Assembly: GCA_024680155.1 (NCBI GenBank) | Contig: JAILCM010000111.1 | Coordinates: 1 to 35,241, forward strand | DNA: 35,241 nt | From: Treponema sp. | GTDB taxonomy: Bacteria; Spirochaetota; Spirochaetia; Treponematales; Treponemataceae | Direction: 5' to 3' | Shown: piece by piece, positions 20,519 through 24,511 of the stretch | Position numbering within the stretch: position 1 is the stretch's first letter | How the letters are laid out: each line of letters begins with the position of its first letter | Notes under the pieces: generated by a model | Told to the model about the DNA's origin: nothing | The model's input: the letters and a program-made list of their open reading frames with translations, nothing else | The model's database searches: none | Made by a program: the position numbers and the translations under genes

Positions 20519-22303
20519 TTATTTTGAAGCAGCATCAATCTTTGCCTGAATGTCTTTTGAAATGTTGTCACAAAGAACTGCGGCTTTCTTCTTAGCATCT
20601 GCAAGCCATGCGTCGCTTCCGTCACCAGCTGGAATCAAAGAGTTGATGTAGAACTTAATCTTTGGTTCTGTTCCAGAAGGTCTTGCACTTACGATAGTTC
20701 CGCTTTCAAGGTAGAACTGAAGTACATTGCTCTTTGGAAGGTTGAACGGCTCTTTTTTAGATGGATTTGCAGGATCAAAAATTACGCTGTTCTGAACGTC
20801 GCGGATTTTTACGACCTTTTCGCCACCGAGTGTAAGAGGAGCGTGTTCACGAAGATCAGCCATAATGCCTTTCATTGTTTCTCCACCAGAAGCGCCTGGG
20901 AAATTCTGTGAAATTGCGCGGTCTTCAAAGTATCCGAATTCTTTGTAGAGTTCATCAAGGTGCTCAAGAAGACTCTTTCCTTTTGAACGCCAGTAAAGAA
21001 TCATTTCGGCACACATTGCAGCGGCAGAAACTCCGTCTTTATCCATAACTTCTTTTTCAACTTTGTAACCGTAGCTTTCTTCCAATCCGAATACGTAATC
21101 AGCAGAACCGTCTTTTTCAAAATCAGCTTCCATTGCGGCAATCCACTTAAAGCCTGTAAGACATTCCATCATTTTTACGTTGTGTTTTTTACAGATGTAA
21201 TCACCAAATGGAGAAGTTACAATAGAACGGATGATTGCAGGATTCTTTGGCATTTTGCCCAATTCTTCGCGAGAAAAAAGAACATAATCCATAAGAAGGG
21301 CTCCCATCTGGTTTCCGCTCAAAAGTACCCAGTTTCCGTCTTTGTCTGGGAATGCTGTACCAAAGCGGTCTGCATCTGGGTCAGTAGCCATCAAACCGTC
21401 AGCTTTTTCTTTTTTAGCAAGTTCAACTGCAAGAGTAAGAGCTGGTTTTTCTTCTGGATTTGGTTTTTCTACAGTTGGGAAGTTTCCGTCTGGTTCGCGC
21501 TGTTCTGGTACTGTGATGATATTTAATCCAAGGTCACCAAGAACTTTTTCTACGTGCATAGCACCTGTTCCGTGGAGTGGAGTGTAAACAATGCGAACAT
21601 CCTTTGCCTTTTCTTTAATCAAAGCAGGGCGGAAAAGCTGAGCCTTACACATTTCCCAGAATTTTTCATCAATTTCTTTATCAATGAGTTCGAGTTTGCC
21701 TGTTGCAATTGCTTCAACTCTAGTCATTGTCTTTACTTCTTTTACTTTGTTTACTTCTTCGATAATTCCCTTGTCGTGTGGTTCAATTACCTGTGCACCG
21801 TCATTCCAGTAAGCTTTGTAACCGTTGTACATTCTTGGGTTGTGAGATGCTGTTACTACAACACCAGTCTGTGCACCTAAAGTGCGGATTGCAAATGAAA
21901 GTTCTGGAGTAGGACGCAAACTTGAGAAAAGATAAGCCTTAATTCCGTTTGCGGCAAAAATAAGTGCAGTTGCTTCTGCAAAAACATCTGAGTTCAAGCG
22001 GCTGTCGTAAGCGATAACTGCTTTAAGAGTGCCTGCTTTAGCTTCTTTTGGGAAAGCCTTGAGAACGTAATTAGCCAATCCCTGAGTTGCCAAATTTATT
22101 TCAAGAGTGTTCATGCGGTTTGTTCCGCCACCCATAATTCCGCGGAGTCCGCCTGTTCCAAATTCAAGTGTCTGGTAGAATCGGTCTTCCAGTTCCTTGT
22201 AATCTTCTTTTGCAACAAGGTCTTCAACTTCCTTGCGGAATCTTTCATCCTGTTCTGCGGCAATGTATGCCTTTGCACGATTTAAAATTTCTGATTTATC
22301 CAT
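20519..22303 (-). CDS. Phosphoglucomutase/phosphomannomutase (alpha-D-phosphohexomutase family)
   Basis: VTASHNPRMYNGYKAYW, DPDADRFGTA, GLEESYGY, SARPSGTEPKIKFY; SD AGGAGA upstream. Confidence 0.93.
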   Translation of the reverse strand: MDKSEILNRAKAYIAAEQDERFRKEVEDLVAKEDYKELEDRFYQTLEFGTGGLRGIMGGGTNRMNTLEINLATQGLANYVLKAFPKEAKAGTLKAVIAYDSRLNSDVFAEATALIFAANGIKAYLFSSLRPTPELSFAIRTLGAQTGVVVTASHNPRMYNGYKAYWNDGAQVIEPHDKGIIEEVNKVKEVKTMTRVEAIATGKLELIDKEIDEKFWEMCKAQLFRPALIKEKAKDVRIVYTPLHGTGAMHVEKVLGDLGLNIITVPEQREPDGNFPTVEKPNPEEKPALTLAVELAKKEKADGLMATDPDADRFGTAFPDKDGNWVLLSGNQMGALLMDYVLFSREELGKMPKNPAIIRSIVTSPFGDYICKKHNVKMMECLTGFKWIAAMEADFEKDGSADYVFGLEESYGYKVEKEVMDKDGVSAAAMCAEMILYWRSKGKSLLEHLDELYKEFGYFEDRAISQNFPGASGGETMKGIMADLREHAPLTLGGEKVVKIRDVQNSVIFDPANPSKKEPFNLPKSNVLQFYLESGTIVSARPSGTEPKIKFYINSLIPAGDGSDAWLADAKKKAAVLCDNISKDIQAKIDAASK

Positions 22304-22393: not shown

Positions 22394-22586
22394 GCATTAA
22401 AAAAAATCCATACAAAAAATTGGCTTATGGTCACGGCTTCGTGGTTCAGAACCGCGCAATATTGCGCTACACGCTTTTTGTTGCATAGGAACTATCTAAT
22501 GCCGCTTTGCGGCACAACAAAAAGAGTGTTTCTGCCCCACGAACCGTTCCCGCCCGCCAAGTTTCTACTTAAAGTGTTTTTAATGC
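22394..22586. repeat. ~193-bp fold-back (nested inverted repeat) element, MITE-like or structured RNA candidate
   Basis: 31-bp terminal inverted repeats 22394-22424 / 22556-22586 (22/31 matching by hand), inner arms 22433-22451 / 22530-22547 and 22469-22483 / 22515-22529 (14/15), plus palindrome GCGCAATATTGCGC 22454-22467 and apical hairpin GCCGCTTTGCGGC 22501-22513. Confidence 0.8.
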
Positions 22587-22710
22587 AACTCCCTCTCTAA
22601 GTTCCCTATCGCCAAGTTTTTACTTAAAAATTTTTTAATGCGGTAACATCTTAAAGTTCCCGCCAGCCAAGTTTATACTTACAATATTTTTAATGCGGAC
22701 TCCCTAACAA
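22546..22710. repeat. Degenerate tandem repeat, 3 x 55 bp, sharing its first unit with the right arm of the fold-back element
   Basis: GTTCCCnnncGCCAAGTTTnTACTTAnAnTnTTTTTAATGC at 22546, 22601 and 22656; exact 55-bp period. Confidence 0.9.
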
Positions 22711-22747: not shown

Positions 22748-24511
22748 CTACTTATCTGCGCGTCCTAAAAGTTCGGTTTCCCAGGCCAAAAGGGCTTTTT
22801 CCATGTCGGGGTTGGCGCCTTTTACGTCGCAGAGAATGCGGAATACGGGTTCGGTGCCACTTCCGCGCATCCAGATGTAGGCAAGAGCGTTATTATCTTT
22901 GTCTTTGAACAAGATTTTTAAGCCGCCTTTGCCTGATTCTGAATAATCTTTTACATCATGTCGTTCTTTTGTACCGTTTGTGATTATTGCTTCGTATGAA
23001 GTGATTCCGTATTTTTTTGTAAGTTCAGCCTGTTTTGTTTTCCAATCAGATTCAAATTCTTTCTGGAAAGCTGCCTTTAATTTTGCGTGGTCTTTTGCTT
23101 TGATTTTTAGCAATGCACGTGGTTCAGAAACTCCAGTTGTTGTGTATTTTGGAAGACTTTCCATTACATCGCACAATGTAAAGTTTTCTTTGTATTTAAT
23201 GCCTGCTTTTTTGCACCAAAGTTCATAAAGTCCGTTTTCTTTGAGCATTAAAAGCTTGATGATTGCAAAAACAGTGTTCAACGGGTCGCGTACACTCGAA
23301 GGATAAGTGATAGTTCCGCCGTTTGAACCTTCACCCAAAATACGAACTGTATATCCTTCTGCAATTTTTTCGCGGGCAAGATTTACTACGTTTGCTTCAC
23401 CAACTTCTGCACGGAAAATTTGTGCTCCAAGTTTCGAAGCAATTTCGTCAATTCTCATGGAAGTTGGGCAATTTACAACAACTGCAGGTTTAAATCCAGA
23501 TTCCTTTCCATGCTGCCAGATTGAATAAGTTAATTCTGCAAGTACCGAAAGACTGAAAACTTCCTGTGCTTTAAGAACAACTGCCTTTTTCTGTTTTTCG
23601 TCCCAATAAACAATATTTCCGCGGTCACCATCGCAGTCTGGCATATATCCAAGTTTTACATCGGTATAGCCTGCGGCCTGTAAACGTTCCATTTCTGCGG
23701 CAACGTGAACAAGGTTTTCTGCTTCAGGGATAATTTCGTGAACAATTTTATCTTCATTGATTGCGTAAAAATTGATGTAATTTTCTGAAAAGAATTCTTT
23801 ATCAATACAAAGATGGCGTGAGCTTCCGTTAAAATCACAAACAACACCCATCGGATTTTCTTTTAAAAGTTCATGCAAAATCTGTAAAAAATCATTCTGG
23901 TATTCTTTGTTTTCGGTTCCTGTTATTGTTTGCATGATAAAATCTTTATAAGAATGAAGCGCATTAAATTTAGCACTTCCGCCGCTTGTATAAACCGATT
24001 TTAATTCAGAAGAACTGCAGCTTAAAGCCGATTTTACAAGTTCATCAAGTCTTGCGTCATCTGCAACAAGGGCTGAAAATTCTTTTATAAGTTTTGCGTT
24101 TTCAGTTCCGCTAAGAACTCCGCCTTCATTTGTACCAAATTTAATTCCATTATGGCCAATTGGATTATGACTTGCAGAAATATAAATGAATCCGTCAAGT
24201 TTTTTTGCATAAGCCATAATTTCTGGGGCAGATGTAATTCCCGAAAATTGTATGATTGCACCTTTTTTTACAAGAAGGTGGAGCATCGCATCTGCAATTT
24301 CTGCTCCTGTTGGGCGGGTATCCATTCCAACTGCAATAACTGGATTCTGTTGATTTGTAAGTGCTGAAATATAATCAAAGAAAACTGAAGCTGCTGCAAT
24401 TGAAAGTTTTTTGTCTTCTTCTTTGATTTGTGCCGAAGTGTCCTGTTCGTTTCCAGAAGCCGCAAAAACTTTTCGCCATCCGGAAGCAGATAAAATCATA
24501 TTATGTTCCAT
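22748..24511 (-). CDS. Second phosphohexomutase (phosphoglucomutase/phosphomannomutase family)
   Basis: YISASHNPIGHNGIKF, MPDCDGDRGNIVY, GEGSNGGT, RGSGTEPVFRI. Confidence 0.92.
   Translation of the reverse strand: MEHNMILSASGWRKVFAASGNEQDTSAQIKEEDKKLSIAAASVFFDYISALTNQQNPVIAVGMDTRPTGAEIADAMLHLLVKKGAIIQFSGITSAPEIMAYAKKLDGFIYISASHNPIGHNGIKFGTNEGGVLSGTENAKLIKEFSALVADDARLDELVKSALSCSSSELKSVYTSGGSAKFNALHSYKDFIMQTITGTENKEYQNDFLQILHELLKENPMGVVCDFNGSSRHLCIDKEFFSENYINFYAINEDKIVHEIIPEAENLVHVAAEMERLQAAGYTDVKLGYMPDCDGDRGNIVYWDEKQKKAVVLKAQEVFSLSVLAELTYSIWQHGKESGFKPAVVVNCPTSMRIDEIASKLGAQIFRAEVGEANVVNLAREKIAEGYTVRILGEGSNGGTITYPSSVRDPLNTVFAIIKLLMLKENGLYELWCKKAGIKYKENFTLCDVMESLPKYTTTGVSEPRALLKIKAKDHAKLKAAFQKEFESDWKTKQAELTKKYGITSYEAIITNGTKERHDVKDYSESGKGGLKILFKDKDNNALAYIWMRGSGTEPVFRILCDVKGANPDMEKALLAWETELLGRADK

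Follow-up and report, generated by a model that had tools for sequence, protein, structure and literature searches.

A degenerate repeat between two Treponema phosphohexomutase genes: a probable ISAs1-type MITE with a conserved folded core

The noncoding gap between two phosphohexomutase genes in a 35,241-nucleotide stretch of Treponema sp. DNA (contig JAILCM010000111.1, referred to here as the window) raises the question of what kind of sequence folds back on itself there. The original prediction described a nested inverted repeat at 22394-22586, and considered it to be a miniature inverted-repeat transposable element (MITE), a REP-like unit or a structured RNA. Gene calls and Pfam domains confirm that the element lies in a noncoding gap between two co-directional phosphohexomutase genes, both on the minus strand, and that the window copy sits upstream of a gene, not directly behind one. 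The neighbouring genes and the outer parts of the gap are:

20519..22303, minus strand: phosphohexomutase gene (PF02878/PF02879/PF02880), with its start codon 90 nt from the element
22748..24511, minus strand: phosphohexomutase gene (PF02878/PF02880), upstream of the element in the direction of transcription
22394..22424, plus strand: left outer arm, from the sequence and from comparison with other copies in the same draft genome (G000)
22556..22586, plus strand: right outer arm with a degenerate right terminal inverted repeat (TTTTTAATGCAACTCCCT), from the sequence
22587..22640, plus strand: right-end fragment of a second copy (CTAAGTTCCCTATCGCCAAGTTTTTACTTAAAAATTTTTTAATGC), from an alignment of the three right ends
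22641..22706, plus strand: right-end fragment of a third copy, with its terminal repeat TTTTTAATGCGGACTCCCTA still recognisable, from the right-end alignment and the sequence

All named pieces of the predicted architecture are in place. The inner pairs (ACGGC..CAGAA with TTCTG..ACCGT, and ACACGCTTTTTGTTG with CAACAAAAAGAGTGT) lie at the positions given for them on checking the sequence, and so do the 14-nt palindrome (22454-22467) and the GCCGC-TTT-GCGGC hairpin at the apex. The outer arms are both 31 nt long, as described, yet their pairing is confined to the ends (10 bp and about 5 bp) and does not extend over the full length. The span proposed for the element is slightly short, as the two right-end fragments continue from 22587 to 22706. 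At the left, GCATTAAAAA (22394-22403) represents what is left of a degenerate terminal inverted repeat of ISAs1 type, namely its inner half, the outer CAGGGNNTCC having been lost; the left ends of the compared G000 copies read CAGGGATTCCGTATTATAA, TAGGGCTTCCGCAT and CATAGCTTCCGCATTAAAAA. The fragment at 22587..22640 is part of the DNA matches to G000:C237, C31 and C107. Judged by its eroded ends and the two further right-end fragments downstream, the window copy is an old, degenerate family member; it is decayed and without any sign of a special function at its site.

The element is a member of a dispersed, genus-wide repeat family. A DNA search of the draft genome from which the window comes turns up relatives of the element on several contigs. 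A covariance model of the 144-nt core finds 16 copies there and detects the core in more than half of the genomes sampled from this Treponema genus (113 of 200). The original prediction would have been refuted by a single copy without homologues, and this is not what is seen. Plain DNA similarity gives matches in 10 of 39 related genomes, all of the same genus, and in an order-wide sample of 149 genomes from 62 genera the core is matched in this genus only, with none of the 61 other genera represented. In a named collection, the exact core pattern occurs in Treponema and Spirochaete records only (including T. bryantii and Treponema sp. JC4 and C6A8), and no match to it was found in viral contigs, phages or plasmids. 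No Rfam family matches at the gathering score, and nothing related appears at E up to 5. Lists of candidate structured RNAs exist (PMC8040213); in the literature searched, no description of the element and no MITE, ISAs1-type or other, or REP of Treponema was found.

The class of the family can be read from the ends of its intact copies, which are mostly 213-216 bp long and carry CAGGGC(AA/TT)(A/C)CGCATTATAA at both ends. Such ends are present in 84 copies and are eroded in the window copy. Among these 84 copies, the agreement between left and right flanks peaks only at k=10 (mean mismatch 0.44 vs 0.71-0.74 at other lengths), and the search for target-site duplications (TSDs) that the original prediction had proposed yields a 10-bp duplication with at most two mismatches in 32 of the 84, against 0.05% of shuffled flank pairings. 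Empty sites are found as well, as the joined flanks of three insertions in G021 are uninterrupted in the relative G166. Members of the ISAs1 family have inverted repeats of 14-22 bp starting with CAGGG and make a 10-bp duplication (PMC11946415; also PMC6305408). ISAs1-family transposases (PF13808) are present in 24 of the 200 genus genomes; the complete ISAs1 copies of G213 terminate in CAGGGCAAACGCATGTAA and lie between perfect 10-bp TSDs, and an ISAs1 insertion sequence of G165 has CAGGGCAAACGCATTATAG ends. Because its ends and 10-bp duplications match those of the ISAs1 insertion sequences of the genus, the element's membership of the ISAs1 group, as an ISAs1-type MITE, is well supported, and the MITE option is the one borne out by terminal repeats, duplications, empty sites and genus insertion sequences with the same ends. 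A genome-encoded transposase, also sought by the original prediction, exists within the genus in G213, G165 and, below cut-off, G166, but the draft genome of the window, which is 82% complete, yielded none, nor did G021 or G010, and across the genus the presence of ISAs1 does not track the presence of the element (p 0.28). An origin of the core as an internal-deletion product of an ISAs1 insertion sequence was rejected, as six insertion sequence copies examined contain no convincing core match.

Several loci show ISAs1-type ends or unusual duplications in other arrangements. In one (L073 972-1377, G000:C18), two oppositely oriented elements are enclosed by a single pair of outer ends with a single perfect 10-bp duplication (TAGAATGATT), as if both had transposed together as a composite. 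A 17.2-kb segment (L083 1015-18241, G003:C10:35014-52240) lies between 31-bp ISAs1-type inverted repeats with the 10-bp duplication AAAAGGGAAC and contains genes, named by eye, of GH32-like fructan utilisation, kinase, ABC-transporter and LacI type with no transposase inside; it is possibly metabolic cargo mobilised in trans. One G006 copy (L031 1440-1652) has perfect 24-bp direct repeats as its flanks, not 10-bp ones, and a decayed ISAs1 transposase gene (L082, G006:C150) has a TIR-like GGCTTCCGCATTATAA just upstream.

Inside the ends lies a core composed of a long stem, a lateral hairpin, a bulged conserved loop and an apical hairpin, with the following parts in the window:

22420..22560, plus strand: conserved folded core, the sole match to model R1 (144 positions, 49 pairs) within the window (cmsearch 141.1 bits, E 2.1e-32)
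22429..22449, plus strand: 5' variable arm with flanking GGTC, pairing with 22533-22550; hypervariable yet paired among copies
22454..22467, plus strand: lateral hairpin GCGCAATATTGCGC (helix 4), with 98.8% of cells paired and compensatory changes in 4 of 5 pairs
22469..22483, plus strand: 5' strand of helix 5 (ACACGCTTTTTGTTG), with the invariant G of a G/A mismatch, from covariation
22488..22495, plus strand: conserved unpaired motif GNAACTAT, with column conservation of 0.92-1.00 except at the N
22500..22514, plus strand: apical hairpin TGCCGC-TTT-GCGGCA (helix 6), with 98.2% of cells paired
22515..22529, plus strand: 3' strand of helix 5 (CAACAAAAAGAGTGT), from covariation
22533..22550, plus strand: 3' variable arm, pairing with the 5' variable arm

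The fold is strong on either strand. As RNA, the element has a minimum free energy of -68.4 kcal/mol on the plus and -79.0 kcal/mol on the minus strand (z = -7.4 and -7.7; 0 of 200 shuffles as good), and folded as DNA it has z = -8.6. It is also conserved among copies: in an alignment of 104 distinct sequences, which was fitted to the covariance model and hence is biased towards it, 96.1% of cells are paired, 46 of the 49 pairs have double-sided changes, and double-changed cells number 845, compared with 247 after shuffling and no more than 131 in slid controls. When 26 sequences were aligned separately with MAFFT, 38 of the 49 pairs had double changes. Helix 5 stands out with 99.7% of cells paired and double changes in 14 of 14 pairs. 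The compensatory changes whose absence would have counted against the original prediction are thus present, and covariation supports a conserved fold. The mismatches between helices are nearly invariant (T/C in 85 of 86, C/T in 85, G/A in 86 of 87) and the unpaired GNAACTAT is nearly fixed among copies, whereas the stems vary. In one G004 copy (L063 1535-1702), an extra hairpin of about 24 nt replaces the small lateral hairpin.

Two processes could keep the arms matched, and the pairs themselves fit both. G-U pairs are very rare in helices 3-6 (9 and 12 of 2585 cells on the two strands, 21 together; a tRNA control gave 8.5%, from only four tRNAs), as would be seen if the fold were needed on whichever strand is read, or if the arms were corrected at the DNA level. 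As arm correction can itself yield covariation, compensatory change alone is no proof of an RNA gene, a point that holds for multicopy fold-back elements. Arm correction alone would, however, erase the fixed mismatches, so that selection on the core as a folded strand, with stems that vary but stay paired around a fixed loop and fixed mismatches, is the simplest reading. Concerted evolution of the core was also considered; orthologues are overall more alike than paralogues, and gene conversion is therefore unneeded at most sites. A chance secondary structure in AT-rich intergenic DNA has nothing beyond the AT-richness in its favour and is already refuted by z values below -7, the multiple copies, the covariation and the TSDs.

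If a folded strand is selected, it may be the minus strand. Read on this strand, the fixed mismatches are purine-purine (G-A, A-G, G-G) and include a 5'-GA-3'/3'-AG-5' tandem, a pattern typical of internal loops in RNA. The minus strand has nearly double the number of G-U pairs (94 vs 52), and where the neighbouring genes are co-directional, it is the strand that is transcribed at 43 of 58 site clusters. These counts are partly dependent on one another. The window copy shares the orientation of this majority. Together with unpaired columns that are nearly invariant while the stems vary, these features suggest an alternative in which the core belongs to an undescribed class of functional structured RNAs, is read from the minus strand and rides on the MITE, with a position at gene 3' ends that reflects processing or cis-regulation and not termination. 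The scarcity of G-U pairs in helices 3-6, the lack of an Rfam match, the flips of orientation at orthologous sites described below and an orientation bias that is weak among copies lacking transposon ends alone (20 vs 9, p 0.06) all speak against it, and we regard this alternative as possible but somewhat doubtful.

Copies with and without transposon ends differ in where they are found, a contrast partly confounded with taxonomy as the two sets come from different species; the position statistics rest on genes called by a simple script and a background from two contigs. Copies with ends (G021, G010, G207, G213, G166) are mostly located upstream of genes, with 34 of 68 between divergent genes vs 54 of 288 intergenic gaps. 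In the T. bryantii-like clade, many copies lack transposon ends. End-less copies (G004, JC4, C6A8, G169) lie a median of 28.5 nt behind stop codons, with 27 of 91 between convergent genes vs 34 of 288 intergenic gaps (p 1e-4), and T-runs of at least 4 are present on both sides of 61 of 104 end-less copies vs 14 of 88 copies with ends. A stable hairpin and a T-run, two hallmarks of intrinsic terminators, are thus combined in the end-less copies with a place near stop codons and a preference for convergent pairs, and this position and anatomy predict a role like that of two-way intrinsic terminators. Termination needs neither invariant mismatches nor the GNAACTAT loop, and a terminator role hence leaves the conservation of the core unexplained; the window copy's own place upstream of a gene also counts against such a role. 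Simple empty sites for end-less copies were sought in G004/G169 without success, as flanks are too diverged and mostly decayed remnants were found.

At about 10 of some 22 orthologous intergenic sites with end-less copies, the element is oriented in opposite directions in different species while the flanks are collinear. In the close relatives G021 and G213, its orientation agrees at those shared sites that were inspected. Inverted repeats are known to undergo template switching, which makes their arms uniform and inverts the spacer between them (PMC8604942), and the Treponema elements are probably inverted in place by such switching between their arms. The opposite orientations could also stem from independent insertions into the same terminators, as a few orthologous sites carry cores of different types (L274/L288, L131/L289). 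This would demand very frequent hits on the same site, the arms at inverted sites are alike in the genomic frame (distance 0.36 vs 0.475 for random pairs) and rare arm sequences are shared at several sites (AGTGAGG at L278/L292), which makes independent insertion unlikely.

Taken together, the explanation that we consider probable, with some reservation, is that the window element belongs, as a degenerate copy, to an ISAs1-type MITE family that is spread through the genus and has a conserved folded core, and whose end-less copies are kept as terminators or 3'-end hairpins and whose arms undergo switching. In the proposed model, an ISAs1-family transposase acting in trans would move copies by cut-and-paste, and copies that lose their ends would persist where the hairpin is useful, near stop codons and between convergent genes, acting there as two-way transcription terminators or as stabilising 3'-end hairpins. 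Template switching of DNA polymerase between the arms would keep these perfectly complementary and occasionally invert the element in place. A bolder version, which we put forward only tentatively, is that the core is a folded nucleic acid of a new class, most likely a minus-strand RNA, in which the G-A type mismatches and the loop opposite GNAACUAU are bound by a host factor; it would have been spread by an ISAs1-type MITE, persist without its ends at dozens of 3'-end sites in each genome and flip in place by template switching.

The element goes beyond an ordinary MITE, but its identity as an ISAs1-type MITE is recognisable, and the new part is the conserved folded core together with the end-less copies. 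ISAs1 insertion sequences and MITEs derived from insertion sequences share with it terminal repeats starting with CAGGG, a 10-bp target duplication and a short, non-coding, many-copy nature, but its interior is no deletion derivative of an insertion sequence and carries the fold. Intergenic repeats of the ERIC/IRU, Correia, RUP and BOX type are also short, mobile and foldable, some with transcript-level effects. The likeness to these lies in such general traits, and unlike them the Treponema element has invariant unpaired bases, hypervariable arms and in-place inversion. Quasipalindrome correction with spacer inversion (PMC8604942) likewise involves homogenised arms and an inverted spacer between inverted repeats, but concerns short repeats with few-base spacers in yeast genes, whereas the inverted unit in Treponema is about 145 bp long and belongs to a dispersed family. 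The family thus offers a clear case of a bacterial MITE in which the interior, and not just the ends, appears to be under selection, with end-less copies that appear co-opted as 3'-end signals across a genus and about 22 natural sites for studying the in-place inversion of a hairpin element in bacteria.

Two further readings involve single-strand transposases. REP/BIME repeats with their RAYT transposases resemble the element in being palindromic, intergenic and often located behind genes, but its size and TSDs do not fit and the RAYTs of the genus carry a different repeat, so that the REP-like option of the original prediction fails in its RAYT form. A statistical association does link RAYT-type Y1 transposases to the element (19 of 21 vs 94 of 179 genomes, p 0.0008); as mobilisers they were rejected, as 20 RAYT-type loci carry GGGGTCTGTCCCC-type repeats and no core copy. 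The core could alternatively be a folded single-stranded DNA site for a recombinase or single-strand transposase, comparable to an attC site or an IS200/IS605 end, a reading suggested by the almost purely Watson-Crick pairing on both strands, the invariant extrahelical bases, the existence of end-less copies and the in-place inversions. It appears quite improbable, as the TIRs and TSDs of copies with ends are of the duplex type, the copies are dispersed with no integron-type array and no adjacent recombinase seen, attC boxes (RYYYAAC/GTTRRRY) were not seen by eye at element ends, and the Y1 transposases, besides being flanked by the other repeat, are absent from G056 and G057, both of which are rich in end-less copies. 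The RAYT-like Y1 transposases themselves (L377-L396; about 250 aa, in about 21 genus genomes), with their flanking GGGGTCTGTCCCC-type repeats, are a separate REP-like system.
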